The position numbers were made by a program, and so were the translations under genes. From Eubacteriales bacterium (GTDB lineage: Bacteria > Bacillota > Clostridia > Lachnospirales > Lachnospiraceae): a DNA stretch of 38,049 nucleotides. The DNA lies in NCBI GenBank assembly GCA_030536755.1, contig JAUNPJ010000035.1:1-38049 (forward strand), given 5' to 3'. Below the pieces are notes generated by a model that was not told where the DNA came from, did not search any database, and worked only from the letters and a program-made list of their open reading frames with translations. Positions 15,570-38,049 of the stretch are shown in pieces; the stretch's first letter is position 1, and each line of letters opens with the position of its first letter.

Positions 15570-15619
15570 AGATATTCTCCCTTTCTTTTTCATTCACAAG
15601 ATCACACGTTTCGTCGCAG

Positions 15620-15653: not shown

Positions 15654-15794
15654 GAAAATTTTTATGAAAATAACTCCCGCAATCCCTATTTGTTTACACT
15701 ACTGCTAAAAAGCATGAAAATGCGTACGAAAAAAGGATAGAACTCTCTAACTTTCAATAAAAGGATTTCTCATCGTCCGTAAGAACCTTTAAAG

Positions 15795-15975
15795 AAAATA
15801 AGCAGGTCTCCTGACTTAAGCATCAACACCCAAAACGCCTTCCCAGAGCCTTCACTCCAGTGACATATATGTTTTGGATTAGCTATCACAGTGACGGGAT
15901 CGTCCCGGATTCTCACCGGATTCCCTTTTAATCGGACATTATATCCGAACTTACCTCCTGCGGCTTTATTGCCAA
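15795..15975 (-). ncRNA. Cobalamin riboswitch controlling the ABC importer
   Basis: Read on the minus strand, the region contains GGGAATCCGGTGAGAATCCG followed by the conserved CCCGTCACTGTGAT core, then CACTGGAGTGAAGGC/GGGAAGGC-type sequence. It ends with the B12 box AAGTCAGGAGACCTGC (15802-15817), essentially at consensus. A stable hairpin (TCGGA-TCCGA, 15932-15948) lies on the 5' side. Cobalamin riboswitches usually switch genes off when the vitamin is abundant. The terminator at 15620-15653 is the likely output. Boundaries are approximate. Confidence 0.92.
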
Positions 15976-16087: not shown

Positions 16088-16108
16088 CAATATCAAAAGT
16101 ACGCAAAA

Positions 16109-16293
16109 TTCCTGTGTCTTTCCGATACGCCAGACGGTCGGAAAGCTGAAAAGAGAATGGGGTGCAAATCCCCGCACGAAACGGTGCTGTAAGTATTTAG
16201 ATTCTGCTGCGTCGGCGAAAGCCGGTCATTGGGGCAACCTGAGAAGGCAGCGGCAGAAATCGCCTGAGATACAAGTCAGAAGAACTGCAGGAA
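16109..16293 (+). ncRNA. Cobalamin riboswitch controlling the MATE gene
   Basis: The ends TTCCTG (16109-16114) and CAGGAA (16288-16293) can pair as the closing helix. Inside are the core GGGGTGCAAATCCCCGC with GGTGCTGTAAG, the segment TCATTGGGGCAACCTGAGAAGGC in two conserved parts, and a B12-box variant AAGTCAGAAGAACTGC at 16273-16288. The order and spacing match cobalamin aptamers, although the box deviates from consensus (GAAGAAC for GGAGACC). A 7-bp hairpin (CACAACA/TGTTGTG) follows and may take part in switching before the terminator. Confidence 0.85.
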
Positions 16294-16347
16294 ACGATCA
16301 TGAACACAACATATCCTGTGTTGTGATATTATGCTACGAAAAAACGG

Positions 16348-16448: not shown

Positions 16449-17810
16449 ATGAAAAAACATCTGGATTTGACGGAAGGAAATATCTGCAAAGCCCTCACCA
16501 CTTTTGTCCTGCCCTTAATCCTTGGCAGTCTCATTCAACAGCTGTATACCACTGCCGATGCAATCATTGTGGGCCAGTTTGCGGGGAAAACGGGTCTTGC
16601 CGCCATTGACTCCGTCCACACCCTTTTCAAGTTTCCCCTCAACTTTATGAGTGGTCTTTCCGCAGGAGCCACGATCCTGATCTCAAGATTTTATGGCGCC
16701 AGAGATCCGAAAAGTCTTCACTGCTGTGTTCGAACTGCCCATACACTTGCATTGATACTGGGTATGATATGCGCAGCTGCCGGTGTCATGCTGACACCAG
16801 CTCTTTTGCACATTATGGACGTCCCGGAGGATATTTCCCCCCAGACACTTGCCTATTGCCGTATCTATTTCGGCGGCATCTGGGCTGTAATTCTATACAA
16901 CATGAATACCGGAATTCTCCGCGCCTTTGGAGATTCCAAGCGCCCCCTGTACGTTCTGATACTGAGTTCTTTTCTGAATATTGCAGGAGATTTCCTTCTG
17001 GTAGGCACACTTCATCTCGGCGTCCAGGGTGCAGCCATCGCAACGGTATTTTCCCAGGCAGTCAGTGTCATTTTCACCTACGAGATGCTGGCAAAAACAG
17101 AACACTCACAGGATCAAAATCCTGTCTGGCATCCGCATTTTTGTGCTGAGCATATGACCTATATGGTCAAAATCGGTTTTCCTCTGGCTTTACAGGCCAT
17201 GCTGTTTCCTGTTGCCAATTCCATTGTGCAGGCCAGCGTCAATGGCATGGGGACAAACAGCATCGCAGCATGGGGAATCTGTGACAAAATGAATATGCTG
17301 ATCTGGCTTATTTCCGATGCCATGAATCCGGCATTGTCGACCTACACGGCACAAAATATCGGCGCAGGAAAATACAGACGAGTAAAAAAGGGAACGCTTC
17401 TTGGCACTGCCATGTCCTTTGGAGCAGTTTTGCTCATAAGCCTGATTCTGTATTTTGGCGCTGATTTCATTGGCCGATGGTTCTTATCCGATGCGGATGC
17501 GAAGGCAATCATCCCTCTGGTCGTACACTATACCCGCATGATGGCTCCGTTCTTTGTTTTTTATGCCATTGCGGAAGCCTTTTCCGGCGCCTGCTGCGGC
17601 ATGGGTGACACTCTGAAGCCCATGGTGACTACTCTGATTACTGTTTGTCTGCTTCGGGTAGCCTGCATTTTACTTATTCTCCCCCATTATACTACTATGG
17701 AGTGCATCGTAGACATCTATATCGCTTCCTGGATTGCTGCCGGACTTTCTTTTTCTGCCATGTATATACGGAAGCTGAAAACGATGATGAGACAACAAAA
17801 GAGCCTTTAA
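16449..17810 (+). CDS. MATE-family transporter under cobalamin riboswitch
   Basis: 453 residues with about twelve membrane segments and the MATE fold signature near the start: LPLILGSLIQQLYTTADAIIVGQF, then an inverted second half beginning near residue 235 (IGFPLALQAMLFPVANSIVQ). MATE carriers are mostly Na+ or H+ driven exporters of cationic compounds. Here the leader holds a cobalamin aptamer plus terminator, so expression should rise when cobalamin is scarce. This suggests a role in handling a corrinoid, a precursor or a metal complex; ordinary drug efflux looks less likely. Direction of transport is unknown. AAGGAGG lies 13 bases before the ATG, somewhat far. The final codons overlap the shared terminator. 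Confidence 0.9.
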   Translation: MKKHLDLTEGNICKALTTFVLPLILGSLIQQLYTTADAIIVGQFAGKTGLAAIDSVHTLFKFPLNFMSGLSAGATILISRFYGARDPKSLHCCVRTAHTLALILGMICAAAGVMLTPALLHIMDVPEDISPQTLAYCRIYFGGIWAVILYNMNTGILRAFGDSKRPLYVLILSSFLNIAGDFLLVGTLHLGVQGAAIATVFSQAVSVIFTYEMLAKTEHSQDQNPVWHPHFCAEHMTYMVKIGFPLALQAMLFPVANSIVQASVNGMGTNSIAAWGICDKMNMLIWLISDAMNPALSTYTAQNIGAGKYRRVKKGTLLGTAMSFGAVLLISLILYFGADFIGRWFLSDADAKAIIPLVVHYTRMMAPFFVFYAIAEAFSGACCGMGDTLKPMVTTLITVCLLRVACILLILPHYTTMECIVDIYIASWIAAGLSFSAMYIRKLKTMMRQQKSL

Positions 17811-23611: not shown

Positions 23612-25705
23612 CTAGTTTTCTTCTCCCTCTGCATCCAATGCAGCTTTCGCAGCAATCTCTCTCTCCTGAATATCATTCGGAGCCTGCTCATAACGTGCAA
23701 ATTCATACTCAAAGGAACCGCTTCCGCCAGTCATGGAGCGAAGATCTGTAGAGTATCCATAAATCTCCAGCTGCGGCACATCTGCTTCAATAATCTGGTT
23801 GCCATTGTGGTCTGGATTCATACCAAGCACACGTCCACGGCGTTTGTTCAGATCACCCATAACATCACCGGTAAATTTATCTGGTACCGTTACTTTCATA
23901 GAAACGATCGGCTCAAGCAGAACAGGACTTGCATCCATAAAGCCTTTCTTAAATGCAAGAACAGTAGCCATCTTAAATGCCATCTCAGAAGAGTCAACGG
24001 TGTGGTAAGAACCATCGTATAACGTAGCTTTTACGCCAACAACCGGATATCCTGCCAGAGGTCCTTTCAGAACGCATTCCTGCAGACCTTTTTCCACAGC
24101 AGGGAAGTAGTTCTTCGGAACAGCACCGCCTACGACAATCTGTTCAAACTCAAATGGAGTTTCCAGATCACCAAGCGGCTCAAATTTCATCTTAACATGA
24201 CCATACTGTCCATGTCCGCCGGACTGTTTCTTATGCTTGCCTTCTACGTCAGAAGACTTGCGGATTGTCTCACGGAATGCAACTCTCGGTTTGTCAAGAT
24301 CTACATCTACTTTGTATCTCTCAGCCAGCTTGCTGCAGATAATCTCCAGGTGCTGGTCACCCATACCATATAACAATGTCTGACGGTTTGCTGCATCGTT
24401 GACGTTGCGGATCGTCAGATCCTCATCCATCATCTTAGCCAGAGCCTGGGAAATCTTATCTACGTCAGCTTTATTCTTTGTCTTATATCTCTTATAAGTA
24501 TAAGGTGTGGAAATCACTGCACGCGGATAAATCACAGGCATTGCTTTTGTAGAAAGAGTATCACCTGTCTTTACGCGAACCAGCTTACCGATCGCAGCAA
24601 TATCTCCTGCATGCACTTCAGGAACCTCCAGAGGTTTATTTCCTTCCAGAACATACAGCTTGCTCAGTTTCTCTTCGCAGTCACGCTCTGCATCATATAA
24701 AACGTCTGTATTTTTGATAACGCCGGAGCAAACCTTGATCATCGAATATTTACCGATGAACGGATCCACAATTGTCTTGAATACATATGCAGATTTTGCT
24801 TTCGTGAAATCATAATTTGCTTCAAAGATTTCATTTGTCTTCTGATTCAGTCCGTTGCATGGACGTTTGTCAGCACTTGGGAAATATCCAATAATATCAT
24901 CCAGAAGATTGGAAACGCCTCTCAACTCAGTCGGTGCACCCATACATACCGGTACAATACTTCCATCCTGTACATTCGTAGCCAAAGCAGCAGAAATCTC
25001 TGTGATAGAGAATTCATCTCCCTCAAAGTAACGATCCATGAACTCTTCACTCGTCTCTGCCACAGATTCCAGAAGGACTTCACGGTATTTATCCAGATAT
25101 TCCTGAGAGTATTCCGGTACCGGGCATTCCTGTTTGCCGCCCTTATCGATAAACTTACGTCCGGCTTTCTTGACAACATTTACATATCCTACAAATTTAC
25201 CATCCTCACGAATTGGGAAATGAAGAGGCGCAATTCTCTTGCCATAAAGTTCTGTCAGATCTTCTACAACCTTACGGTAGCTGACATCATCCTGATCCAT
25301 ACCAGTTACGAAAATCATTCTTGGAAGTTTATATTTCTCACAGATATCCCATGCCTTCTGTGTTCCAACCTGAACACCGGCTTTGCCGGAGACAACAATC
25401 ACTGCAGCGTCGGCTGCGCTCACGCCCTCTTCCATCTCACCGACAAAGTCAAAATAACCAGGAGTATCTAAAATATTAATTTTAAATTTATCCCAAACAA
25501 CCGGAACCAGAGATGTAGAAATGGAAAATCCTCTTTTAATCTCTTCCTTATCAAAATCACTCACTGTGTTTCCATCTGTTACTTTACCGAGACGGCTGGT
25601 CATACCGGACAAATATGCCATTGCCTCAGCCACAGTTGTTTTGCCTGCACCGCCGTGGCCTAACAGGACTACATTTCTAATTCGGTCAGTTCTAAAAACG
25701 TCCAT
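23612..25705 (-). CDS. EF-G-like translational GTPase (EF-G2 type)
   Basis: 697 residues from the ATG at 25705 (MDVFRTDRIR), with GGGAGG upstream; the frame to 25759 runs through the promoter. G1 is GHGGAGKTT, the form found in EF-G2 paralogues (canonical EF-G has AHxDAGKTT). G2 is KRGFSISTSLV and G3 is DTPGYFDF. G4 reads FVTGMDQDD where most translational GTPases have NKxD. Domains II-V follow, with SGGHGQYGHVKMKFEP in domain IV and a C-terminal EF-G fold to EYEFARYEQAP. Such paralogues are often separate from the str operon, as here, and may act in recycling or stress or under unknown conditions. It should not be called fusA without checking for a canonical copy elsewhere. Confidence 0.9.
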   Translation of the reverse strand: MDVFRTDRIRNVVLLGHGGAGKTTVAEAMAYLSGMTSRLGKVTDGNTVSDFDKEEIKRGFSISTSLVPVVWDKFKINILDTPGYFDFVGEMEEGVSAADAAVIVVSGKAGVQVGTQKAWDICEKYKLPRMIFVTGMDQDDVSYRKVVEDLTELYGKRIAPLHFPIREDGKFVGYVNVVKKAGRKFIDKGGKQECPVPEYSQEYLDKYREVLLESVAETSEEFMDRYFEGDEFSITEISAALATNVQDGSIVPVCMGAPTELRGVSNLLDDIIGYFPSADKRPCNGLNQKTNEIFEANYDFTKAKSAYVFKTIVDPFIGKYSMIKVCSGVIKNTDVLYDAERDCEEKLSKLYVLEGNKPLEVPEVHAGDIAAIGKLVRVKTGDTLSTKAMPVIYPRAVISTPYTYKRYKTKNKADVDKISQALAKMMDEDLTIRNVNDAANRQTLLYGMGDQHLEIICSKLAERYKVDVDLDKPRVAFRETIRKSSDVEGKHKKQSGGHGQYGHVKMKFEPLGDLETPFEFEQIVVGGAVPKNYFPAVEKGLQECVLKGPLAGYPVVGVKATLYDGSYHTVDSSEMAFKMATVLAFKKGFMDASPVLLEPIVSMKVTVPDKFTGDVMGDLNKRRGRVLGMNPDHNGNQIIEADVPQLEIYGYSTDLRSMTGGSGSFEYEFARYEQAPNDIQEREIAAKAALDAEGEEN

Positions 25706-25737
25706 ATGTAATACCTCCCTAAACTTAATATGTCCAT

Positions 25738-25766
25738 ATTGTACTAAATTTTTGAACACTATTCAA
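25738..25766 (-). promoter_or_regulatory. Promoter of the EF-G-like gene
   Basis: Minus-strand -35 TTGAAT (25761-25766), 17-bp spacer, and -10 TACAAT (25738-25743), just upstream of the GGGAGG site. I saw no clear terminator for the ECF operon between 25767 and 25885. Confidence 0.6.
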
Positions 25767-25885: not shown

Positions 25886-27760
25886 TTATTTAATTTTTAC
25901 TGCCTTCACAGAAGAATATGCTCCATACACCTTCTTTCCGCCCACAGTTCTGTAGGCACGTACCTTATAATAATACGTCTTTCCTGTTGTCAGCTTCTTA
26001 TTCGTGCAGGATACAGTGCTTCCTTTCTTGATGGTTGTCACAAGGCTATATTTTCCATTTTTGCTGGATGCACGATAAACCTGATAGCCGGAGGCTAAGC
26101 TTACCTTTTTCCAGGTTAAGACAGCCTGTTTTCTACCTGCTTTGGCTGTAAGAGATGGTTTTGCCGGTTTTTTGATTGCTGCCTTTGCAGTCGTAACAGA
26201 AAAATTCTTTTCATACTGGCTCTGGATTGAGGTTCCCCATGTAGAGGAAACTGCCTGCACTCCATAATAGTACACACTTGCGGCAGTTACAGCAGAATCT
26301 TTATAAGTACATGCTGTTGTCTCCGCAATCTGCTTATAAGTGCGCTCTCCCTCTTTTCGACGGAGGATACGATACTTCTCGGCATACGGATATGCCTCCC
26401 AGGTAATAGATGCCGTACTGGCTGTCACCTGACTGCTTTTCAGCACTGGTTTTCCCGCTTCAAAATTACTCTTAAGATCTGCCCCTACGACTACATGGCA
26501 CACTGCTGAAAATTTACCATCAACCGTCAGACGAATATTCGTCTCACCCAGTGTGACCGGTGTCACCTTTCCGGATGCATCCACAGAAGCTACTTTGTCA
26601 TTGTCACTTTTCCATACCAGAGATTCTGCCTTCGCACCCTGCGGACTTAAAACATACTCCAGCTGGCGGGCACTTTCCCCCGTCTGAAAGCTGAAGGAAT
26701 CCGGTGTGAGCGTAACACCTTCCGCCGCAATCGGTTTCTCCAAAACTGTCACGGTACAGCTTGCAGACACACCATTAGAAGCTGTAACTCTCACAGATGC
26801 CGTTCCCACGCCAACAGGAGTGACCAGCCCTGCATTTACCGTTGCAACACTGTTATTGCTGGAACTCCAGGTCACATCCGCAGCTGCATCTGACGGTGAG
26901 ATCGTATAATTTAACTGCACCGGAGCATCTCCCGGATAAAAGCTCAGAGAACCGCTGCTCAGGCTGATGCTCTCCACCGGTTTCGGCAAACGTGCATTTG
27001 CATCCTGAAGAAGCGAAGTCGCCTCATAGACTTCATTTGATGTAGCGTCAATCGTAGTTAATACCGACAGCGCATACGCATATGCACTGTCCATTCCTGC
27101 CACTGAAGGCCATGATGTACGGCCCGCATTTGCTACTCCCATCGCCCGAATCAGAGCATCTTTATTGGCAGCAGTAAAATATGTTTTCTGTGTCGATGGA
27201 TCATATCCTGTGATATCAGACCCTCCGGTGACTGTAAACATGACACGCACCACAGAACCGTCCGAAGGCTTACTTCCCGAATTTCCCATTCCCACGTTCA
27301 TATAGGTATCATCCAGCTTATAGGTCCAGCCCGATGAGGAAATGTAAGAAAACTCTGTCAGATCAGGGGCATATTTATTGCTCGATTCCAATACATAGGG
27401 CTTCCCCTCCCAGTCTGTTGCATTTGCCAAAATATCCTGTATGCAGGAAGGAAGGCTGACATATCCACTGTCCACATTTTTAATTCCTTCCAGATACCAG
27501 CCAAAAGAAGAACTCTCTGTATACTGCAGGCTGACTCCATGTTCAGCTGCCGCACGAATCAGAACATCTGCTGTCGTCTCTCCGGAAGTAAATTCCACCT
27601 GCACAGGGTCCAGAATCATTCCCTGCCCAAGCGTACTCTTCTCAATACAAAGCGTCAGTGTATCTGCATACGCACTCACCTGAAAAACACCCATCACGCC
27701 GACTGCTGCACACGCAAACACGGCTGCCTGCTTCATCTTTTTCCAAAACTTTTCTTTCAT
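25886..27760 (-). CDS. Secreted DUF4430 protein with Big2 and FN3 domains
   Basis: 624 residues. Signal peptide (MKEKFWKKMKQAAVFACAAV, cleavage likely after SAYA). Residues about 33-185 are a DUF4430 domain, the family of the transcobalamin/intrinsic-factor C-terminal beta domain: VQVEFTSGETTADVLIRAA, FGWYLEGIKNVDSG and SSGWTYKLDD. After a linker (190-265) come two bacterial Ig-like (Big2) domains (about 267-345 and 350-430, each with a V-W-S-S/D-N/D core), then two fibronectin type III domains to the C-terminus (YYYKVRAYRTVGGKKVYG). The domain order suggests a ligand-capping module displayed on a surface stalk. Last gene of the ECF operon, 31 bases after the S component. The same FN3 tail occurs in the large protein at the right edge. 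Confidence 0.88.
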   Translation of the reverse strand: MKEKFWKKMKQAAVFACAAVGVMGVFQVSAYADTLTLCIEKSTLGQGMILDPVQVEFTSGETTADVLIRAAAEHGVSLQYTESSSFGWYLEGIKNVDSGYVSLPSCIQDILANATDWEGKPYVLESSNKYAPDLTEFSYISSSGWTYKLDDTYMNVGMGNSGSKPSDGSVVRVMFTVTGGSDITGYDPSTQKTYFTAANKDALIRAMGVANAGRTSWPSVAGMDSAYAYALSVLTTIDATSNEVYEATSLLQDANARLPKPVESISLSSGSLSFYPGDAPVQLNYTISPSDAAADVTWSSSNNSVATVNAGLVTPVGVGTASVRVTASNGVSASCTVTVLEKPIAAEGVTLTPDSFSFQTGESARQLEYVLSPQGAKAESLVWKSDNDKVASVDASGKVTPVTLGETNIRLTVDGKFSAVCHVVVGADLKSNFEAGKPVLKSSQVTASTASITWEAYPYAEKYRILRRKEGERTYKQIAETTACTYKDSAVTAASVYYYGVQAVSSTWGTSIQSQYEKNFSVTTAKAAIKKPAKPSLTAKAGRKQAVLTWKKVSLASGYQVYRASSKNGKYSLVTTIKKGSTVSCTNKKLTTGKTYYYKVRAYRTVGGKKVYGAYSSVKAVKIK

Positions 27761-27791
27761 ACTCTCACTCCTATTCGTTTTATCATTATTT

Positions 27792-28667
27792 TTATCTCTG
27801 AATCAGCCCATACTTTCTCTTGATTCGTTCCAGCTTCTCCAGAAGCGGTCGGCTCATAAACCACAGAAAAATGACGGTGGAGGTCGCCTGCACCAGATCC
27901 ACCGGAGCACCGGAGATGTAAAACGCAATCAGGCTCTTCTTCGTGATATATCCATACGACATCAGAATCGCCGCCGGATTCATGATTCCTCCGAAGATAA
28001 AAAATACACTCAGAAATCCATAGATGCACAAGTGAAGTTTCTTCGCTTTCAAAATACCTTTCTGGAACAAAATGCCCGCCAGAAAACCGATCATCCCATA
28101 GGAAAACATCTGCCATGGTGTCCACGGTCCCTGTCCAAAAAACATATTGGAGACCATCATGATCATGCAGCCCACCAAAAATCCCGCCTCACCCCCAAAG
28201 GATATCCCTGTGAGAATGACAACCGCCGCAATCGGCTTAAAGCTCGGCACCATAAAAAACGCTGCACGCCCTGCCACTCCGATTGCCGCAAGCACTGCGA
28301 TCACCATGATTTCCCTGGCCTGAGGTTTTCTTCCCTCAAAGACCAGGAAAAACGGCACCATGGAAAACAGAATGACCAAAAGACTGAATAACAAATATTT
28401 TCTTCCATGATAGACCCTCACTGAAAGATACAAGATCAAAGGAACCGTCAGTGCAAACAAAATCAGTGCAATCCAGGTGCGCTTTTCTACCCGGCCCTTG
28501 TGAATCGGCTGAATGATCAGACCATCTTCACGAAACTCATACTCTTCATATTCCGTTTCAGAAACAGAACAGTTCCCTGTCCCGTCCCTCCCATACCTGC
28601 CATTGTTACTGTCTGCTCTGTTCCAGAAACGGTCTATAAACTGATCTAACTCAGTTTCTGTAAACAT
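27792..28667 (-). CDS. ECF transporter substrate-binding (S) component
   Basis: 291 residues. The core (about 118-285) has six membrane segments and the family pattern AVLAAIGVAGRAAFFMVPSF, FKPIAAVVILTGISFGGEAGF, SNMFFGQGPWTPWQMFSYG and GFLAGILF, as in S components of the CbrT-like cobalamin group. That substrate group is inferred from remembered sequence style and from the DUF4430 neighbours. The N-terminus has an unusual extra part: a hydrophilic acidic stretch (1-62) and two membrane segments (65-86 and 91-110) before the core. It overlaps the ATPase gene by 22 bp. S components give specificity and bind EcfT-EcfA to import the vitamin. It sits in the cytoplasmic membrane. Confidence 0.88.
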   Translation of the reverse strand: MFTETELDQFIDRFWNRADSNNGRYGRDGTGNCSVSETEYEEYEFREDGLIIQPIHKGRVEKRTWIALILFALTVPLILYLSVRVYHGRKYLLFSLLVILFSMVPFFLVFEGRKPQAREIMVIAVLAAIGVAGRAAFFMVPSFKPIAAVVILTGISFGGEAGFLVGCMIMMVSNMFFGQGPWTPWQMFSYGMIGFLAGILFQKGILKAKKLHLCIYGFLSVFFIFGGIMNPAAILMSYGYITKKSLIAFYISGAPVDLVQATSTVIFLWFMSRPLLEKLERIKRKYGLIQR

Positions 28668-30343
28668 GCTGCCACCTCCTTTGCTGTGACAGCATGCGGA
28701 AAATACTTTCTTGCCATACGGTTGGCTGCTGTCGTATAGAAATTGTTTCCGGCAAAAAATTCTCTGGCCGGCTTACTGGTCACAATGCTTCCCTGAAAGA
28801 ACAGACCAACCCGGTCTGCATACTCAGCCACAAATTCCACATCATGCGAAATCAGAAGAATCGTAATGCCATGTGCCTGCAGACGCTTGAGGATTCCTCC
28901 CAATTCCTGCTTGTACTCTGCATCCAGTCCCTTCGTGGCCTCATCAAGCAGAAGAATCCTGGGCCTTAGCAGCAGCACTTTCGCAAGTGCCAGCCTCTGC
29001 TGTTCCCCACCGCTCAGATCATACGGATGACGATCCAGCAGTCCTTCCAGCTTTGTCAGACTCACAATTCCCTCGATTGCTTCCGCCTTCTTCATTTCTA
29101 TCGGATATTCCTCCGATTGCTTCTCCTTTTTACCTCCTATGATCGAATAGAGATCCTCACGAACTGTCTTCTTGATAAACATACTCTGTGGGTTCTGCGG
29201 CAAAATGCCCAGATACCCCCGATACAGTTCCCGATCGGAATAAGAACGGATATCTCTGCCTCCAATCAGAATCTTTCCGCGATACGGCTTTCTCACCCTG
29301 CTGATGAGAGACAGCACCGTACTTTTTCCGGTGCCATTCCCGCCTACCAGCGCATAAAACTCCCCCGCCCTGACTTCCATGGAAAAATCCTGCACCACAT
29401 CCCTTCCGTTTTTCTCATAACGAAACCAGAGTTCTCTTGCTTCGATGATATTCGGTCTGTCATTCTCCTTCTTCGTTAGTAAATCTGCAGAAACACCCGC
29501 ATCAATCCGTTTTTTCTGGCAGATTCTATCCAGCCATCTTCGTCCCTCACTGACAGTCAGCGGACAGGGCTCTTCACTGTCTGCCTCCGCATAGATCCGC
29601 ATGGGAGCAGGCATAGAGAGAAACATCCCCTGATCTTTTTTCTTCAGTTCCTCCCCCACCTGCCTCGGCTTTCCCTCACAGATGATTTCACCTTTATCCA
29701 TCACAAACACCCGGTCTGCCCAGGGAATGACATCCTCAAGCCGATGCTCCGTCAGGATCACCGTTGTCCCAATGTCACGGTTAATCTTCTTCACCGTCTC
29801 CAGAAAATCCGAAGCCGCAATCGGATCCAGCTGTGACGTCGGTTCATCCAAAATCAAAAGTCTCGGATGCATAGCCATGACCGCCGCCAGATTTAGAAGC
29901 TGCTTCTGGCCTCCTGACAGTTCTGTCACATTTTTGTAAAACCACTGGTGGATTCCGAAATAGCTCGCCATCTCCGCCACGCGAAGACGTATCGTGGCAT
30001 TGTCATAACCAAGACTTTCCAGTCCAAAGGCAAGCTCATGCCATACCTTATCCGTCACAATCTGGTTCTCCGGATTTTGCAGCACATATCCAATCTCCTG
30101 GCTCTGCACCCGCTGCTCAATGGTATCCATCGGTCTCTGACAATATATAATTTCTCCTTCCTTCGTTCCGTGAGGGGACAGAACCGTCTTAAAATGACGA
30201 AGCAGCGTACTCTTTCCACATCCGCTCCTGCCGCACAAAACGTTCAGACTTCCCTCCTGTATGTCCATATTTATATGATGTAGCGACTCCCGGTCTGTAT
30301 CTGGATAGGAAAAGCTGAAATTCTTTACTTCTATCAGATTCAC
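28646..30343 (-). CDS. ECF transporter ATPase, two fused domains
   Basis: 565 residues with two complete nucleotide-binding domains in one chain, replacing the usual separate EcfA1 and EcfA2. The first has Walker A GRSGCGKST, signature LSGGQKQLL, Walker B LLILDEPTSQLD and H-loop TEHRLED. The second starts near residue 300 and has Walker A GGNGTGKST, signature LSGGEQQRL, Walker B LLLDEATKGLD and H-loop SHDVEF. It hydrolyses ATP to drive the ECF transporter. Its start overlaps the EcfT stop (ATGA) and its end overlaps the S component by 22 bp, which implies coupled translation and fixed stoichiometry. A dedicated fused ATPase means this is a stand-alone (group I-type) ECF system. Confidence 0.95.
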   Translation of the reverse strand: MNLIEVKNFSFSYPDTDRESLHHINMDIQEGSLNVLCGRSGCGKSTLLRHFKTVLSPHGTKEGEIIYCQRPMDTIEQRVQSQEIGYVLQNPENQIVTDKVWHELAFGLESLGYDNATIRLRVAEMASYFGIHQWFYKNVTELSGGQKQLLNLAAVMAMHPRLLILDEPTSQLDPIAASDFLETVKKINRDIGTTVILTEHRLEDVIPWADRVFVMDKGEIICEGKPRQVGEELKKKDQGMFLSMPAPMRIYAEADSEEPCPLTVSEGRRWLDRICQKKRIDAGVSADLLTKKENDRPNIIEARELWFRYEKNGRDVVQDFSMEVRAGEFYALVGGNGTGKSTVLSLISRVRKPYRGKILIGGRDIRSYSDRELYRGYLGILPQNPQSMFIKKTVREDLYSIIGGKKEKQSEEYPIEMKKAEAIEGIVSLTKLEGLLDRHPYDLSGGEQQRLALAKVLLLRPRILLLDEATKGLDAEYKQELGGILKRLQAHGITILLISHDVEFVAEYADRVGLFFQGSIVTSKPAREFFAGNNFYTTAANRMARKYFPHAVTAKEVAACLQKLS

Positions 30344-31362
30344 GGCTCTGTTCCTCCTTCTTTTGCAATCTCTTCATACATCTGCCGATAAGTAAGCGTC
30401 ATCTCATTTCCAATATAACTGCGGCTCCTTTTCATAGCCAGTGCTTCCGCCACATCCAGAAGCAGGGGCATCAGACAGAAAAATCCAAAGCACACATAGA
30501 CCGCCAGCGCCAATGCCAGGTCGCAGGATACCTGCGCCGTTTTTCCCTGTACCACAATACCGGCAAGCAAGATCCTTGGATTATACTGGGCAAAAGCCGC
30601 CCCCTGGCTGCATCCGATGATCATGACTGCTGACAATGCCAGCATGGTGCCCAGAAGAACTCTGTCCCTTTTCGTAAAACGATAAATAGAAAATGCGGTT
30701 CTTCCCGGCAGGCCATATCCTCTGCTCTTCATGGAATCCGCCGTCTCAATGGCATTTTCCAGCGCCCATGTAACAAGAATGGAGACCATATTCAACGCAT
30801 ACCGGATTTTCTTCATCCGCTTTCCGTTGCTTACATCCATCCCCACACATTTCTGCCCGTTTCGAATCACCTTCATCTGTGCGGTAAAACGCGGCACAAA
30901 CCGAAGTGCCATGGACAACATCAGAGAAAGAGCCGGTATCACCCTGCCAAACAGATAAATAAACTTGTCACTTGTCATCACTTTGTTGTAGCACGAAAAC
31001 CATAAAATCACGATAAAAAGCACACAGCCCAGCACAATACCATAGACCAGTGCCTCCAAAGTCACCCAGTTACCGCTGCTCTCGATATAGAGAAGAGGCG
31101 TAACGCCATAATGGTTGAACATGGGATTGAGCAAAGCCACAATCACCAGTGACGGAAGCGTCACCAGAAAATTCATTTTTAAGATCTGTCTGATTCCACA
31201 CAGCCACATCGCATAGGCAATCGCTGACAAAAAAGAGATTACAAGAAAAACAGGATGCTGCACAAACATCGTAAAGCCCAGAACCACAGCAAAATAGAAA
31301 AAATTCAACACAGGATGGCATCTTGAAAACGCATCGCCCCTGTCTCTTGCCTCATCATTCAT
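30340..31362 (-). CDS. ECF transporter transmembrane component EcfT
   Basis: 340 residues with five to eight membrane segments. The N-terminal HPVLNFFYFAVVLGFTMFVQHP is typical of EcfT/CbiQ proteins. The coupling-helix signature is present as SMKSRGYGLPGRTAF (the x-R-G motif that contacts the ATPase), preceded by the other helix with an ARG-like element (QMKVIRNGQKCVGMDVSNG region). The C-terminus is extended and basic, and ends with a soluble stretch (LTYRQMYEEIAKEGG). Its start overlaps the lipoprotein stop by eight bases. It joins the S component to the fused ATPase in the membrane. Confidence 0.93.
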   Translation of the reverse strand: MNDEARDRGDAFSRCHPVLNFFYFAVVLGFTMFVQHPVFLVISFLSAIAYAMWLCGIRQILKMNFLVTLPSLVIVALLNPMFNHYGVTPLLYIESSGNWVTLEALVYGIVLGCVLFIVILWFSCYNKVMTSDKFIYLFGRVIPALSLMLSMALRFVPRFTAQMKVIRNGQKCVGMDVSNGKRMKKIRYALNMVSILVTWALENAIETADSMKSRGYGLPGRTAFSIYRFTKRDRVLLGTMLALSAVMIIGCSQGAAFAQYNPRILLAGIVVQGKTAQVSCDLALALAVYVCFGFFCLMPLLLDVAEALAMKRSRSYIGNEMTLTYRQMYEEIAKEGGTEP

Positions 31363-32557
31363 AATACTGGTCCCCTACATCCGAACCAAGCGTACAGGTA
31401 TATCTCCACTGAATGACATCGCCGTCTTCGAGTGTATAGCTGGAGCATCCATAGTTTGGATACCAGCCGTTTACGTTGTACATCCATCCGGAATTCTGGC
31501 CGCAGTCAAACTCATACAGGTTGTTGATGCCCTCCACATAATAACTGTTGTACATCGGTGTCCAGCTGGACTCCATCTGAATCCCTGTCTCATTGCAGAC
31601 ACGCTTGAGCACATCAAAAACCGTCTCTCCCTGCGTAAATTCTACCTGTGATTCATAAAGAATCCAGCCATCCGAAGGAACAAACTCCGCCTTCGAAGAT
31701 TTCAGATCATCCCAGTTATCCAGAATCGTCTGACAGTCAATCGAAATCGTACAGGTCAGAGCATTACTCTGCGTATCGTCCATATCCTCCGAAGAATCCT
31801 CTCCTACAGAGTCTGTCTGTTCATCAGATGAGGTATCATTGTCCTGTGAACCTTCCTGTGTGGTCTCTTTTTTCTTCTTTTCCGAATTGTCATCCGCCTT
31901 CTCATCATCCGAAGAACCTGTTGTAGAGCCACCGACCAGATAAAATCCCTCTCCTACCTGTGTTACCGAAAACGTAATGGAAGATACTTCTCCATCCTTT
32001 CCATTCACCGTCTCAATCACGGCGTCATCCAGCTTATAGAGAGCAGAATCCTTATAGACGCAAAACAGCACTTTATCGGCATCCCACTGCTCGTTCAGTG
32101 TGACTGTCAGTCTCGCCGGTGCCGCCATATTCATCTCCTGCGTGGTAATGGCAAGTGCATAAGGAGCATTGTTGGCAGCTTTCTTCACTTGTTCGGTACC
32201 TTCCTCACTTATCTTGACAAGCAGACGCTGCTTTTGTGGGTTCTGCACCTTCTTTCCCTCATACGCCCATTGATATTGGATTCCATCCTCTGTCTTACCA
32301 TTAAAATAGAAGATCCCCTGCTTTCCTGCGATGGTTGCCATCTGCGCTTCTGTAATCACTCCATCCTTCGGAATCTCATTTTTCTCCTTCAAAGGTTCCA
32401 CATCTTCTGTGCTCTCTTCGTCTTCCTCCATGGCATCCGCCACTTCTTTGGTAATCTGCGGGACATCACTTGTGCCCTGACTCTGACAGCCGGTCAGAAA
32501 CACCAGGCACAGCAGCAGGCTGCATATCCTGAGCACGATACTTCTTCGTCTGTTCAT
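31355..32557 (-). CDS. DUF4430 lipoprotein (transcobalamin beta domain-like)
   Basis: 400 residues. The N-terminus is a lipoprotein signal with lipobox VFLTGC, so the protein is tethered outside the membrane. Residues 55-215 form a beta-rich domain (KQGIFYFNGKTEDGIQYQW; LTVTLNEQWDADKVLFCVYK). A highly acidic Ser/Asp/Glu linker follows (about 216-265). The C-terminal 130 residues are a clear DUF4430 domain: VEFTQGETVFDVLKRVC, YYVEGINNLYEFDCGQNSGW and WYPNYGCSSYTLEDGDVIQW. In intrinsic factor and transcobalamin the equivalent domain caps the vitamin. Located between the toroid protein (16 bases upstream) and EcfT, so likely the membrane-proximal receptor. Ligand not proven. Confidence 0.9.
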   Translation of the reverse strand: MNRRRSIVLRICSLLLCLVFLTGCQSQGTSDVPQITKEVADAMEEDEESTEDVEPLKEKNEIPKDGVITEAQMATIAGKQGIFYFNGKTEDGIQYQWAYEGKKVQNPQKQRLLVKISEEGTEQVKKAANNAPYALAITTQEMNMAAPARLTVTLNEQWDADKVLFCVYKDSALYKLDDAVIETVNGKDGEVSSITFSVTQVGEGFYLVGGSTTGSSDDEKADDNSEKKKKETTQEGSQDNDTSSDEQTDSVGEDSSEDMDDTQSNALTCTISIDCQTILDNWDDLKSSKAEFVPSDGWILYESQVEFTQGETVFDVLKRVCNETGIQMESSWTPMYNSYYVEGINNLYEFDCGQNSGWMYNVNGWYPNYGCSSYTLEDGDVIQWRYTCTLGSDVGDQYYE

Positions 32558-32573
32558 AAACTTCTCCCTCTTT

Positions 32574-34976
32574 TTATTTCATTCCAGTCGGTTTTCCATT
32601 TTTTCTCTTTCTGTATAAAAAGCGAACGCACTCCAGGATTCCCCAGGCTCCGGCACCTCCTGCCATTCCCATGGCAAATGGAAGGCTCTGCCTTCCTGTC
32701 TCCCTCCCCCTTTGCGGTTCAGCCACATCGTCACCTCTCTCCGATTCCACCTCTGAAAAAGGCAGCGCATCAAACTCCAATTCTTCCTCATCCGGTGTCC
32801 ACTCTTCTGCGTCAAAATTCCAGCCGTCTTCTTTGGTTTTACTTTTTGATTTTGAGGAAGCAGTCTTTCCTGCTCCGGAAGACGAGGTTGTTTTCGCAGT
32901 AGAAGCAGCAGAACTCGTTGTTTTTCCTTTTGTTTTTGTACTGCCGCTACTCTTCCTCACAGAAGTACCACTCCCACCGGGTGTTGCTGATGGCTTTGGA
33001 GTCGGCGTTGCAAGTCCCGTACCGTTTCCGTCTCCTTTTCCGCCCTTTTTGATTGTCACATCCGACATGTCATAAAGACCGGTCTTTCCGTTTTTCAGTC
33101 GCTGATAGGCAGTCATCGCATAGTATCCCTGCTCTGTCGCCATACCATTGACTGTGCCCGCTGCACCACCGCCATTGTTCTGTGCACCGGCTTTCACGTG
33201 CATGAAACCACTTCCATCAATATGATAAGAAAGAAGATTTTCCATCGTCCAGTTGCCGCCCTTAATAAAACGTTCATCCGTCTGTGGGTCGATTCCAAGA
33301 CTGCATAACGCCACGATTACCTGTGCACAGGACTCCTCCGTCTCCACACCGACCGTCGCATAACCACCGTTATCGAGCTGAATGCTGCTGAGTGCCTCCA
33401 GCCCCCGGTCAATGGCAGCTGTCACTTCTTCATAGCCCGCTTTGTTGTAATAAGGAGCCAGCGCCTGCAGAGCCATGGCTGTCACATCGGAGTCCGGCAC
33501 ATTTCCCATCATGGCCCATCCTCCGCCGTTTATTTCACTGCCGACCAGATACTCGAGCAATATCTCTTCTGTCGTCTGTATCTGAACCGATGCATTCTTC
33601 GGAAATGAATATTCCGGATTTGAATTCAGCGCCAGAAGCGCCCAGATCGGACCGTTGAGTCCCTGTCCTTTGACTTTGTCAAAATCCGATAAATACTGAA
33701 ACAGGTTATAGCCGCCGACATTTCTGGCATCCTTTCCCATCGCAGTCAGAGAGAGCACCCGCTTCGAATACTCTGTATATTTGGAAGTATTCGTCAGGAT
33801 TCCGTGCTGTTCTTCTATGTAGTTCGCCGTATGATTATAATAAGTAGAAAAATACGAATCCTGAAGACTCATCCCGCTTCTCGCCAGGCCCAGCACAAAC
33901 CACTCACTTCCCACCGTCGGACTTTTGTCAATCGACAGCATATACTGCTTCGTCTCCTTCATCACTTGGGAAACACTTTTCTTCAGCTCATTCGCACCCT
34001 GCATGACCGTGACTTCACATACGGCACGCATATCCGGATGTTCGTTTACCTTCGCTGTGATCACAGCCTTCCCCTTCTTCTCAGCCGTCACAACACCTTT
34101 TTCACTTACCTTAGCCACCGACGGATTGCTGCTCGACCATGAGACGGTGTATTCCTCTGTCACAGATGCCGGAACCGGCAATACCTCCAGCGTCCTTTTC
34201 TGACCTTTGTTAATTTTCAGCGTCTCATGATTCAGGCTGATTCCCTCCAGTCCTGCCGGAAGATCCACCACCAGAACACTGTTCAGTGTCCTTGCACTGC
34301 TGATATAAAAATCACCGTTTTCCTGTACGACCGGAGACAGATCCAGAAACGAATCCCCCAGATCACGCAGCACCATCGATCTTGTCAAGGCTTGATACCC
34401 CTCCACTGCAGGCAAGGTCATCGACAACGGTGTCATCGGCTTATATGCCTCGCCTGTCCGGATATCTGTATAGCGAATCTGCTTGTACAGCACAATCTGC
34501 GGCGATGTCTTCTCATATTGGCGGACAAGCTTTTCGAGCATCTCCTGTGTATCGGTGCCATCTGTAATCTCCAGTTTCACATACCAGGGATTACCCGTGA
34601 CGGTAAATCCACAATCCGTAGACAGGACCGCCGCAATCCGTTCCCGCACAGTCCCAAGCTTCTCCACAATATCCGGAGAAATCTGCTCTTTTTGTGATTC
34701 CTCAAGCGCATCATACGCATCCGAGGCCGCCAGAAACTCCTGCATCACCGAAGACTCCAGATCCGGCGTCGTCTGCTCCACAGCCGCCAGGACCGCAGCA
34801 GCAATCTCTGATACAGAATACTGCCCGTCCTTCCCCGCCTGCATACTTGCTTCCTCATTTTCATTTTCTTGTTGTGCCGTCTGTTCCGAAGGAAGCGTAT
34901 CCCCCGATACCGGCAGTACACTCCCCGTCACAAGACACGCATGCAAAAGCAATATAAAAATTGTTTTCTTTTTCAT
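32574..34976 (-). CDS. Exported alpha/alpha-toroid protein (transcobalamin alpha-like)
   Basis: 800 residues from the ATG at 34976 (MKKKTIFILLLHACL), which begins the signal peptide; the TTG at 35018 lies in a hairpin and is unlikely. Approximate order: acidic N-terminal stretch and helical segment (50-120), a mixed domain with a DUF4430-like start (GNPWYVKLEITDGT, 125-235), a Big2 domain (242-327), and an alpha/alpha toroid (345-636). The toroid shows terpenoid-cyclase/transcobalamin-type repeats such as GGGWAMMGNVPDSDVTAMAL, then ALAPYY, and GGYATVGVETEESCAQVIVA, with MATEQGYYAMTAYQ at the end. A low-complexity Ser/Thr/Lys/Gly linker follows, then one membrane helix (about 762-785) and a basic tail, so the toroid is anchored on the surface. 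It may bind the ligand opposite the DUF4430 lipoprotein. Confidence 0.88.
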   Translation of the reverse strand: MKKKTIFILLLHACLVTGSVLPVSGDTLPSEQTAQQENENEEASMQAGKDGQYSVSEIAAAVLAAVEQTTPDLESSVMQEFLAASDAYDALEESQKEQISPDIVEKLGTVRERIAAVLSTDCGFTVTGNPWYVKLEITDGTDTQEMLEKLVRQYEKTSPQIVLYKQIRYTDIRTGEAYKPMTPLSMTLPAVEGYQALTRSMVLRDLGDSFLDLSPVVQENGDFYISSARTLNSVLVVDLPAGLEGISLNHETLKINKGQKRTLEVLPVPASVTEEYTVSWSSSNPSVAKVSEKGVVTAEKKGKAVITAKVNEHPDMRAVCEVTVMQGANELKKSVSQVMKETKQYMLSIDKSPTVGSEWFVLGLARSGMSLQDSYFSTYYNHTANYIEEQHGILTNTSKYTEYSKRVLSLTAMGKDARNVGGYNLFQYLSDFDKVKGQGLNGPIWALLALNSNPEYSFPKNASVQIQTTEEILLEYLVGSEINGGGWAMMGNVPDSDVTAMALQALAPYYNKAGYEEVTAAIDRGLEALSSIQLDNGGYATVGVETEESCAQVIVALCSLGIDPQTDERFIKGGNWTMENLLSYHIDGSGFMHVKAGAQNNGGGAAGTVNGMATEQGYYAMTAYQRLKNGKTGLYDMSDVTIKKGGKGDGNGTGLATPTPKPSATPGGSGTSVRKSSGSTKTKGKTTSSAASTAKTTSSSGAGKTASSKSKSKTKEDGWNFDAEEWTPDEEELEFDALPFSEVESERGDDVAEPQRGRETGRQSLPFAMGMAGGAGAWGILECVRFLYRKRKNGKPTGMK

Positions 34977-35005
34977 AGATGTCGTCCATTCCCTAATATG
35001 GCATA

Positions 35006-35032
35006 AGCCCTCCGGCAAATTGCCGGAAGGCT
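35006..35032. repeat. Intercistronic hairpin
   Basis: AGCCTTCCGGCAA (minus strand) pairs with TTGCCGGAGGGCT with one mismatch over 13 positions. It lies in the 64-base gap between the right-edge gene and the toroid gene. No T-tract follows on either strand, so it is more likely an RNA-processing or stabilising hairpin than a terminator. It could set unequal expression of the two genes. Confidence 0.6.
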
Positions 35033-35040
35033 CGTTCTGC

Positions 35041-38000
35041 CTATTTCGTTTTGACTTTCTTTACTGCCGAATAGCTTCCATATACGTTCTTTCCATTTAC
35101 TGTTCTGTATGCACGGACTTTGTAATAATAATTCTTTTTCGATTTCAGCCTGCTATCAGTATAAGAGACTGTGCTTCCTTTTTTGATCGTTCCTACTCTT
35201 GTATATTTGCCATTCTGGCTTGTCGCACGGTATACGGCATAACCGGATGCGCCGGATACTTTAGACCATTTCACGGTAACCGATGTACCTTTTGCTTTCG
35301 CACTGGAAAGTTTCACAGCAGCCGGTACAATCTTTGCAGTCTTCACAGAAGAGAAACCGCTGTAAACCTTCTCACCGGATATGGTCGCATACGCACGTAC
35401 TTTATAATAGTAAGTCTTGCCGGTTGTCAGTTTCTTGTGCGTATAGCAAATTGTCTCACTCTCTGTAATTGCAGCAATCTTCTTGTAAGTGCCGCTCTTG
35501 GAGCTCTTTGCATATACCTGATAACCATCTGCCTCAGAAAATTCGGACCATGTCACCTTCGCAGAATTGTAGCTGAGAGAAACGGCCTTGATTCCTGCTA
35601 CCTTTCCTGCTTTGAATGCGGCTTTTTTCTGCTCCGCCTTCTCCTGCTCTGCCTTTCGGTAATTTGTTACCAGTTGTTCTACAAGCTCCAGCTGTTTTTT
35701 GTTATACAGATAAGAAATTCCCTCTGTGCCCAGCTTCTCCATCGCTTCTTTCACAGCTTTGACTTCCTTCTCCACACTGTCAATATTAGCAGGAGTCAGC
35801 TCTGTCGGAAGATTCATGATCCACTCATCGATTTCTCTGGCATCTGCCACATTCTTTGTGGTCTTATCCACCTGTTTCTGAATCTCCGCAATCACATCCG
35901 CAAACGAAATGGTCTTATTACCTACTGTTACCGTCACCGAGGCCAGTGCTTCTTTGTCGCTGCCATAGCAATTGTTGTAAGTATCAAGCAGCGCCTGCAC
36001 ACTTGCAAGCGTGTCGCGTGTTACCGGTACTGCCATAATCTGTGCATAGACCTTCGATGCATTGTCTGCGAATTTCTGCAGCTTCTGTGTCTTATAAACA
36101 GGGTAAGTCTCCGCCAGTTTCAACAATGCATTCATGTTGGCCACAAGACTGGTATTCTGTGCGTCAAACGCTTTCTGATCTGCTGCTGACAATGCTTCAA
36201 ACGCCATCTCAGCGTCGACAAGCTTTGTGATCTCCGCATCTGCAAGCTGACGTCCGGATGCACCCACATGTTCCTGCATCTCTTCTTCCGGAAGTGCTTC
36301 CAGATCTGCTGTTTCCACAGAAACCGCCTTTTCCGTCTCCGGTACTTCCTGGATTTCTTCTGCCATCTCTTCTGCGCTCTGTGCGATTTCTTCCGTATCC
36401 ACGCTCTCCACAACAGAAGTCTCTTCTTCAGATACTTCTGCTGGCTCTGCACCTACCCGCTCACTTGCTGTATATGGTGCGATCACAGATGCATTCGGAA
36501 GTGCATTCATCATGTCTTTGAGTTCCTGGAAATTCAGCTGTCGGATATATCCCTCTGCCTTTACAAGGGAACTCAGGTTACTGATCAGGCTCTGACGGGA
36601 AGGATCGATTCCATCCACCATGCCTCTGACGTTGACTACATAATCTTTCCAGGAATCCCAGACTGCTTTCGTCGGAACGCCGTTGTTCTTCTCTGTCTCC
36701 TTCAAAGGTCCATCAATGCGGTTACCTGCCGGATTGGTGGTCGCTCTCAGCTCATCAATCTTACCGATAATGTCTGCGATATCCGCATCCACCTTATTCT
36801 CTTTGATAAACATCTCTGCATCTTCGAGCAGACTGTAGTTCGTCACGAGTGCTTTCTGCTCCGCAGTCAGCGCATTGTAAAGTGTTCTTGCCTCGATGAC
36901 AAGTACTTCCCTGTCAGCAAAATTCTGTGCAGTCAGTGTTCCAATCGAAGAAATCTTGTTGATGACTGCCTGTGCCTCCAGAAGGTTCGTCAGCTTTTTC
37001 TGTACCTCAATCAGCTTATAGGCGTTCGTTACCTGCGCCTTCAAAGAAGCATCCAGTGCATCATAAGCACTCTTCGCCTGATTGATCTTTGTCTCATCTG
37101 CAACGGTCACACGGCTTGCATCCGGCAGAGCATTGATCAGGGAGATGACATTTGTAACTGCAGCCTGATCTGACCTGATCTTGGCAATCTGTTTGCGCAG
37201 AGAAGCGATCTTGGAATAATTGTAAACGCCTTTCTGCTCCTGTTCAGACAACTTTTTGTACTGTGCATCTGCCTCATCGATGGCAGCTTCATCTGCCAAA
37301 GTTGCGGTGTCAGGAAGTGTATCGATGGCATTGATGACAACTATAACACCTTGTACGCTTTTCAAAGCTTTTTCTAAATCTTCCGCATTTCTTACATAAT
37401 ATTGAAGTCTTTCTGTGGAAACTTCATCAGTTCCCAATTGATTAAAAGCATTTTGGACTTCTACTATCTTTTTGACATCTGTCAGATAGTTTGTTCCAAT
37501 TTCAGAAATCAAATTCTCTACTTTTTCAACTTCGCTGCGCTCAGCTTTGTTTCCCATAAACATATATGTTTTACTTCCCTGAACGTTCTCAAGAACCTTT
37601 TTTAATTCATAATATTTATCACCATTTGGACTAATATTCAAATTACCAGGCGTCGCATTTTTAGCTTGAGTATATACTTCCATTAATTTCTTATAATCGT
37701 TTGAATTATTTTCTAAATCATTTAAACAATTTTCTGCAGCACCAACAAGTTGATTATATTTACTTGTTGTAACTGCACATTCAGATCGAATATCACCCTT
37801 TCCCCAATAAATATCACCCAATGCGATCATAAGATCTTTATTGTAACCGTGTTGTTTGGATTGAACTGCATAATAGTCCAAAGGATTTGACCAAAAATCT
37901 CCGGTTTCAGTTTGATATTTGCTTATTGAAGAAATTGGTGTCACACTACTTCCATCTTGCAACATAATTTTCCATTCGTCTGTTCCCAAGTCTACCCCAT

Positions 38001-38049
38001 ATGCAGCCAAACCAGATAACGCGCAACCAAAAGTATATAGATTTGCATT
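35041..38049 (-). CDS. Large surface protein, 5' end outside window
   Basis: The frame is open to the right edge (1002 residues visible); the listed TTG at 38010 is not a start. The first 80 or so visible residues (ALSGLAAYGVDLGTDEWKIM to DLMIALGDIY) resemble the last repeat of an alpha/alpha toroid and align by eye with the end of the toroid in the next gene. Next come several three-helix repeats of about 75-85 residues with a common core (A-Y-D/N-A-L-x(3-5)-Q-K-x-x-V-T-N-Y), an acidic Glu/Val/Ser-rich insertion encoded at about 36260-36470, more helical repeats, and two FN3 domains at the C-terminus. The likely role is a long stalk displaying a ligand-binding toroid. The far 5' part is visibly more AT-rich than the rest. 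Confidence 0.85.
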   Translation of the reverse strand, partial: NANLYTFGCALSGLAAYGVDLGTDEWKIMLQDGSSVTPISSISKYQTETGDFWSNPLDYYAVQSKQHGYNKDLMIALGDIYWGKGDIRSECAVTTSKYNQLVGAAENCLNDLENNSNDYKKLMEVYTQAKNATPGNLNISPNGDKYYELKKVLENVQGSKTYMFMGNKAERSEVEKVENLISEIGTNYLTDVKKIVEVQNAFNQLGTDEVSTERLQYYVRNAEDLEKALKSVQGVIVVINAIDTLPDTATLADEAAIDEADAQYKKLSEQEQKGVYNYSKIASLRKQIAKIRSDQAAVTNVISLINALPDASRVTVADETKINQAKSAYDALDASLKAQVTNAYKLIEVQKKLTNLLEAQAVINKISSIGTLTAQNFADREVLVIEARTLYNALTAEQKALVTNYSLLEDAEMFIKENKVDADIADIIGKIDELRATTNPAGNRIDGPLKETEKNNGVPTKAVWDSWKDYVVNVRGMVDGIDPSRQSLISNLSSLVKAEGYIRQLNFQELKDMMNALPNASVIAPYTASERVGAEPAEVSEEETSVVESVDTEEIAQSAEEMAEEIQEVPETEKAVSVETADLEALPEEEMQEHVGASGRQLADAEITKLVDAEMAFEALSAADQKAFDAQNTSLVANMNALLKLAETYPVYKTQKLQKFADNASKVYAQIMAVPVTRDTLASVQALLDTYNNCYGSDKEALASVTVTVGNKTISFADVIAEIQKQVDKTTKNVADAREIDEWIMNLPTELTPANIDSVEKEVKAVKEAMEKLGTEGISYLYNKKQLELVEQLVTNYRKAEQEKAEQKKAAFKAGKVAGIKAVSLSYNSAKVTWSEFSEADGYQVYAKSSKSGTYKKIAAITESETICYTHKKLTTGKTYYYKVRAYATISGEKVYSGFSSVKTAKIVPAAVKLSSAKAKGTSVTVKWSKVSGASGYAVYRATSQNGKYTRVGTIKKGSTVSYTDSRLKSKKNYYYKVRAYRTVNGKNVYGSYSAVKKVKTK

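Follow-up and report, generated by a model that had tools for sequence, protein, structure and literature searches.

Two of the known systems closest to the locus treated here serve as a starting point. ECF-CbrT of Lactobacillus delbrueckii, an energy-coupling factor (ECF) transporter with a crystal structure (PDB 6FNP), imports cobalamin and cobinamide; CbrT uses a group II ECF module that is shared with other S components, and its locus reads nrdJ-cbrS-cbrT-pduO (PMC5997447; papers given by PMC number are cited here from excerpts). The animal vitamin B12 carriers transcobalamin, intrinsic factor and haptocorrin combine an alpha/alpha toroid with a beta domain of the DUF4430 type. Likenesses to both occur in the window, that is, the whole stretch of 38049 bp analysed here, which is the entire contig C107 (JAUNPJ010000035.1) of an Eubacteriales bacterium (G000, a draft genome of 3.84 Mb divided into 145 contigs). 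There, an operon whose genes all lie on the minus strand from 38049 to 25886 encodes, in this order, an edge gene, a toroid protein, a DUF4430 lipoprotein, EcfT, a fused EcfAA' ATPase, an S component and a second DUF4430 protein (Table 1). This operon probably represents a dedicated ECF-type import system for corrinoids, the vitamin B12 family, with its own surface capture proteins, whose DUF4430 and toroid domains would form a clasp. Judged from their sequences, bacteria such as Blautia appear to catch B12 with surface proteins of the same two domain kinds as the human carriers.

The substrate is indicated by the S component. Two of its profiles, A1 (three sequences) and A9 (20 sequences), were searched against 177,635 distinct PDB sequences, and the sole significant match of both was 6FNP_A (E 1.7e-15 and 4.3e-16, respectively), a chain that, given its length of 182 residues and the match itself, would be the CbrT subunit. 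Two further chains were listed without significance, 2bgk_A (E 1.4) and, with A9, 4hzu_S (E 0.14), which we take to be HmpT. Because this sole match belongs to a proven B12 transporter, a corrinoid is a well-supported substrate of the importer; the S component groups with CbrT rather than with a non-corrinoid family, as an earlier, sequence-only reading of this DNA had supposed. The match spans A1 positions 118–290, with about 117 N-terminal residues of the window's S component (28317–28667) outside it; two hydrophobic stretches are visible by eye in this extra part. The fused ATPase scores 354.5 bits with NCBIfam ECF_ATPase_1 (cut-off 315). The likeness to ECF-CbrT thus lies in the ECF architecture and in an S component that is homologous over the CbrT core. 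Unlike in ECF-CbrT, however, T, AA' and S are encoded in one operon (A and S even in one open reading frame (ORF) in most related loci, see below), the S component has an additional N-terminal part, and toroid and DUF4430 surface proteins are added.

For the surface proteins, we used hidden Markov models (HMMs) of two kinds: family-seeded models, which included window sequences, and relatives-only models, which repeat the scores of the window domains without them. The DUF4430 domain of the lipoprotein matches Pfam PF14478 (E 2e-19; 3.2e-20 for the domain alone) as well as the relatives-only HMM (E 1.9e-55). The second DUF4430 protein reaches 16.4 bits with Pfam, below the cut-off of 23.8, and E 3.6e-11 with the relatives-only HMM; in Blautia wexlerae (L039), the S gene is likewise followed by a gene for a DUF4430 protein. 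In alignment A7, all 23 domains match PF14478 (E up to 1). Moreover, the beta-domain fragment of transcobalamin-2 scores 28.3 bits on Pfam DUF4430 and passes the same cut-off. By this measure, the transcobalamin beta domain and the bacterial DUF4430 domains are one Pfam family, which bears out the earlier suggestion that transcobalamin has a beta domain of this type. TCN proteins ending in DUF4430 have already been published (PMC4350170).

The toroid of the window matches the relatives-only toroid HMM over its full length (E 6.5e-108, 358 bits) and, weakly and below cut-off, Pfam SQHop_cyclase_C (E 9e-5), with no match to PF01122 (Cobalamin_bind) up to E 1. As the toroid profiles match squalene-hopene cyclase, membership in the alpha/alpha toroid fold class is clear at the profile level. 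In one related locus (L109), PF01122 is the sole Pfam match of the toroid at E 0.01, and this toroid is located just behind a riboswitch match (L109:3860-4087). A second toroid-like end had been proposed for the edge gene. The family-seeded HMM, with eight sequences searched, finds it at E 6e-4 in the first 170 residues and at 8e-3 in the whole protein; the relatives-only HMM gives E about 1, which is not significant. The edge gene aligns with its counterpart in Blautia wexlerae (L119:14204) at 37% over 721 aa (E 6e-130). Since this counterpart has a toroid (residues 551–825) just before the aligned part, which starts at residue 866 and leaves the remnant itself outside, the truncated edge gene likely retains the end of a toroid, although this is not established.

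Because the gene order recurs in related loci, the arrangement of the operon is more than chance. A contig scan with profile A1 yielded at least 595 pattern matches and at least 533 S relatives, of which the best 80 loci were analysed and all used in the counts. They stem mostly from Bacillota or unplaced bacterial bins; L088, labelled as a Nitrososphaerota archaeon, and L115, labelled as Alistipes, are both metagenome bins and perhaps misplaced. With survey HMMs built from window-family seeds, a DUF4430 domain was detected up to 4.5 kb upstream of S in 66 loci and a toroid upstream of S in 61; in 56, toroid, DUF4430 and EcfT lie side by side. ATPase and S share an ORF in 57 of the 80 loci (L044, L054, L065, L068, L086, L106, L111, L113, L114 and others), and the complete ORFs of this natural A-A'-S fusion measure 868–992 aa among those examined. 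Toroid and DUF4430 likewise occur in a single chain, in either order, in 28 ORFs. One of these, a 441-aa lipoprotein in L093 (transcobalamin-2 in the PDB has 409 residues), contains the toroid at 43–300 and DUF4430 at 311–437 and immediately precedes EcfT; transcobalamin has the same domain order as L093, L066, L074 and others. In the window, toroid and DUF4430 reside in separate chains. The two separate halves described by the sequence-only reading are therefore correct for the window and do not hold for the family: since both halves are fused in loci such as L093, the split is one arrangement among several. In Blautia wexlerae (L039 and L119, on one contig of 360,604 bp), the gene order is the same as in the window, and a 282-aa DUF4430-like protein (own HMM 2e-9; no Pfam DUF4430 match) precedes the counterpart of the edge gene. 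Homologs of S (E ≤ 0.001, weak ones included) are present in 119 of 397 genomes of the family. Separately, the cassette or parts of it were noticed on Lactobacillaceae plasmids (L126, L127): a plasmid of L. curvatus carries an LPXTG toroid, DUF4430, T, A and S, and one of L. plantarum T, A, S, a lectin and DUF4430.

Cobalamin riboswitches add a regulatory link. One (RF00174) stands at the head of the orthologous operon in Blautia wexlerae (L119:13021-13191; 53.6 bits, cut-off 31.5), and another lies directly upstream of the operon in the genus relative G001 (L036:5372-5554), riboswitch and operon being on one contig. CbiZ, a corrinoid salvage enzyme, adjoins the Blautia wexlerae operon, where it comes after a BspA-type leucine-rich repeat (LRR) gene, both behind a divergent second riboswitch (L119:8866-11266). 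An LRR gene comes after the riboswitch in L036 and L037, too. G000 itself possesses a second copy of the operon on contig C67, whose probable start is located on C24 behind a riboswitch; C24 and C67 are linked here by their synteny with G001 and not through sequence that they share. Between the right end of the window and these two contigs, no shared sequence was found. Three further genomes of the family, with 20 kb searched in each, contributed same-strand upstream riboswitches in L121 and L123, so that L119, L120, L036, L121 and L123 have one upstream of the operon and L122 has none.

Among the 80 related loci, a riboswitch is found upstream in at least 38, of which 29 were detected by our own model R1 and nine more by Rfam (L044, L039, L041 and, with contigs assigned through their equal length, L042, L057, L077, L082, L096, L106). 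R1 was built from 12 sequences and has only 12 base pairs; eight of its training sequences stem from seven of the 80 loci, where Rfam had found them first. Matches were counted when upstream, on the same strand and with E < 0.01, and five of the 29 are weak (L040, L054, L066, L070, L084; E 0.002–0.007). The total is a lower bound: one Rfam search, strictly filtered and limited to the best matches, spanned 50 of the 80 genomes, of the 42 loci that lack a match 20 end at a contig edge within about 8.5 kb upstream of S, and L058 and L067, with matches more than 20 kb upstream, were left out. Upstream R1 matches in the 80 loci fall on the operon strand in 30 cases and on the opposite strand in one (binomial p 3e-8). 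The B12 regulation expected earlier is thus present by proxy, at the head of the Blautia wexlerae ortholog and of the G001 relative of the second copy; the promoter of the window copy is absent from the assembly, and this copy would be regulated by a cobalamin riboswitch as well.

Several results weigh against the capture of corrinoids by these surface proteins, or against the reading as a whole. By sequence, squalene-hopene cyclase (E 1.6e-19) is a closer match to the toroid than intrinsic factor is. The latter did not appear in the PDB searches up to E 10 with toroid profiles A8 and A6 (A6 being the 114-row alignment for the L093 fusion) and reached E about 1 with profile A5. PF01122 was matched by one of 54 toroid domains scanned, the one in L109, which scores 25.6 bits as an excised domain and 22.5 in the whole protein at a cut-off of 25. 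The kinship of the toroid to intrinsic factor, as far as these profiles tell, is weak, and of the proposed likeness to transcobalamin and intrinsic factor the beta half (PF14478) holds, while the toroid half is weakly linked, the window's own toroid lacking a PF01122 match. DUF4430 profile A7 has transcobalamin-2 as its best PDB match, at an E value of 0.064 that is below significance. Furthermore, seven of the 80 loci comprise T-AS only with no surface protein found upstream, although some may be incomplete; T-AS loci in which a riboswitch adjoins EcfT include L044, L054, L086 and L111. The existence of such ECF-only loci suggests that the surface proteins are not always needed and that T, AA' and S form the importer proper, with the surface proteins as capture devices.

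The same observations can be turned into an alternative, in which corrinoids are indeed the cargo of the importer, while the toroid and DUF4430 proteins take no part in clasping them and accompany the operon as adhesins, binders of glycans or peptides, or scaffolds that span the wall. The toroids stand closer to squalene-hopene cyclases and to the TED domain than to intrinsic factor, several of the proteins bear modules that are common in surface proteins (Big_2, fn3, SLH or LRR), and in some loci the ECF genes occur without them. However, it would have to be reconciled with a toroid-DUF4430 pair that adjoins EcfT in 56 of the 80 loci and is fused in 28 ORFs, with the cobalamin riboswitch upstream of many such loci, and with the fact that the transcobalamin beta domain is a DUF4430 protein. 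We therefore regard a pure scaffold or adhesin role as unlikely and prefer corrinoid capture.

The remaining points on the negative side concern the importer and its regulation. EcfT obtains 24.3 bits with Pfam CbiQ (PF02361), just below the cut-off of 25, and an NCBIfam profile scan at E 0.1 gave no match for it. The relative G290 (L122) has no riboswitch within 17.6 kb upstream of S, and of the 50 genomes that encode an S relative and were scanned with strict filters, G027, G029 and G039 gave no RF00174 match. One of these, Lacticaseibacillus pantheris (G039), possesses the cassette and matches neither the riboswitch nor PF02310, the B12-binding domain; Enterococcus pseudoavium (G022) has no PF02310 match either. 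In the window copy, the leader lies beyond the contig end, the boundary being inside the first known gene. PF02310 was discarded as an indicator of B12 use, for it is matched by 24 of 26 genomes but also by 12 of 14 controls. It could be argued from some Lactobacillales that have the cassette but lack a cobalamin riboswitch or PF02310, and from the existence of an ECF transporter for heme, LhaSTA (PMC7299338), that the importer serves a different large cofactor, for instance heme or a tetrapyrrole other than a corrinoid, and that the riboswitches mirror an indirect coupling. This appears highly improbable, given an S component that matches CbrT and no other solved chain significantly, the many loci in which a cobalamin riboswitch precedes the operon on its own strand, and CbiZ as a neighbour in Blautia wexlerae.

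Corrinoid import with surface capture could proceed as follows. DUF4430 domains and toroids, held at the surface by lipid or membrane anchors, would close around the corrinoid outside the membrane; the large outer proteins and the membrane-near toroid/DUF4430 pair would capture it and pass it inward. The membrane-near DUF4430 lipoprotein and toroid would then deliver it to the S component of the CbrT type, and its release into the cell would be powered by EcfT and EcfAA' as the motor. The cobalamin riboswitch, which heads the operon in relatives, would presumably turn expression down once corrinoid is abundant. Corrinoid binding by toroid and DUF4430, closure of the clasp, hand-off and relay are steps that we infer. 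Separately made alpha and beta domains of transcobalamin assemble only once cobalamin is added (PMC5599065), and since they do so, a split, surface-held carrier seems a reasonable proposition chemically; binding is described as starting with the beta domain (PMC11107200).

Alternatively, the surface proteins might bind corrinoid and store or shield it, for competition or protection, and not feed the importer. The large extra toroid/DUF4430 proteins upstream of the EcfT-adjoining pair would suit such a role, as would four clustered TP methylases on C24 and CbiM in the same genome, by which import may be non-essential. Yet the toroid-DUF4430 pair closest to EcfT borders directly on it within a single operon, in the window even with the gene overlap given below, which argues for direct service to the importer and makes mere storage improbable. 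Extending the preferred reading, capture that feeds the importer, one may ask whether Bacillota relay corrinoids through the cell wall over several stations built from repeated transcobalamin-type modules, split or fused, a system with an ancestry shared with the animal B12 carriers or even their source; we consider this conceivable, although on balance doubtful.

Compared with the animal carriers, the proteins described here are bacterial and surface-anchored, split over chains and repeated in the window, low in toroid similarity, and known from sequence. The Isd heme relay of Staphylococcus is similar in that binding domains anchored to the wall deliver a tetrapyrrole to an importer in the membrane, but these are NEAT domains and the ligand is heme; we know of no domain shared with the toroid/DUF4430 system. 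BtuG, presumably a surface B12-binding protein of Bacteroidetes, and BtuH resemble the proteins of the window in being surface proteins of corrinoid transport loci, but serve outer-membrane transport, and to our knowledge neither has a domain in common with the toroid/DUF4430 proteins. BtuH is a surface B12-binding protein of Bacteroidetes (PMC8941943). ECF-CbrT is already known, and CbrUVT has been counted in gut genomes (PMC6593275). Our literature search, limited to openly readable papers, found no report linking DUF4430 or transcobalamin-like proteins to an ECF importer, and the excerpts of PMC11477304, PMC3766115, PMC7478625 and PMC3716772 contain nothing on toroid or DUF4430 partners. 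A specific candidate corrinoid system can now be named together with its capture proteins, for a family whose S relative is encoded on at least 533 stretches. The finding points to a counterpart of intrinsic factor and transcobalamin in prokaryotes, and is relevant to the competition for B12 between gut bacteria and their host.

The operon is as tight as described before, and its overlaps of 22 bp between S and ATPase genes (28646–28667), 4 bp between ATPase and EcfT (30340–30343) and 8 bp between EcfT and lipoprotein (31355–31362) were reproduced exactly from the ORF coordinates. Likewise, the earlier list of parts stands for the S component, fused ATPase, DUF4430 lipoprotein and toroid protein; EcfT scores just under the Pfam cut-off and is assigned by its position and its recurrence in related loci, and the second DUF4430 protein is recognized via the relatives-only HMM. 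The upstream end of the edge gene is lost at the contig boundary. For the toroid protein, the ORF listing begins at a TTG at 35018, the ATG at 34976 being the likely start; its signal peptide and membrane anchor were assigned by eye. Within the operon, promoter-like sites number 12 versus 15.6 by shuffling and terminator-like sites 18 versus 8.8 (both strands). An elongation factor G-like gene follows immediately downstream (23612–25759, minus strand).

Table 1. Genes and domains of the candidate corrinoid import operon, with positions in the window.
Feature	Position	Strand	Description
Edge gene, 5' end lost	35041..38049	-	Surface protein; helical repeats, two fn3 (Pfam), possible toroid C-terminal end at ~37891-38040
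Anchored toroid protein, 800 aa	32574..34976	-	Signal peptide, Big_2, alpha/alpha toroid, low-complexity stalk, C-terminal membrane anchor
Alpha/alpha-toroid domain	33060..33953	-	Candidate counterpart of the transcobalamin/intrinsic factor alpha domain
DUF4430 lipoprotein	31355..32557	-	Lipobox LTGC by eye; DUF4430 at ~31370-31753; candidate counterpart of the transcobalamin beta domain
EcfT membrane coupling component	30340..31362	-	Pfam CbiQ just under cut-off; position and recurrence in related loci
Fused EcfA-EcfA' ATPase	28646..30343	-	Two ABC_tran stretches (Pfam); NCBIfam ECF_ATPase_1
S component, CbrT (cobalamin) type	27792..28667	-	Profiles A1 and A9 match PDB 6FNP_A
Second DUF4430 surface protein	25886..27760	-	Signal peptide, divergent DUF4430 at ~27212-27667, two Big_2, fn3

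As for the host, G000 has six TP-methylase matches, and the cluster of four on C24 is as expected for cobalamin synthesis; the family, PF00590, says little alone, for it matches 14 of 14 controls, too. The same applies to the one match to PF01497, which we take to be the family that holds BtuF and which matches 13 of 14 controls. Judging from these genes, the organism may produce corrinoids itself in addition to salvaging them through the two copies of the system. Elsewhere in G000, cobalamin riboswitches precede CbiM (L003) and a MATE pump on C74 (L002). The window itself contains two divergent cobalamin riboswitches at 15784–15969 (minus strand) and 16095–16306 (plus strand), one of which heads a nickel/oligopeptide-type ATP-binding cassette (ABC) transporter (binding protein 13977–15593, permease 13013–13960) and the other a MATE pump (16449–17810). 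They were rejected as regulators of the operon, lying about 10 kb past its downstream end and before other transporters. Finally, a Clostridiales-1 RNA (RF01699, 126.7 bits) is located at 260–424 on the minus strand.

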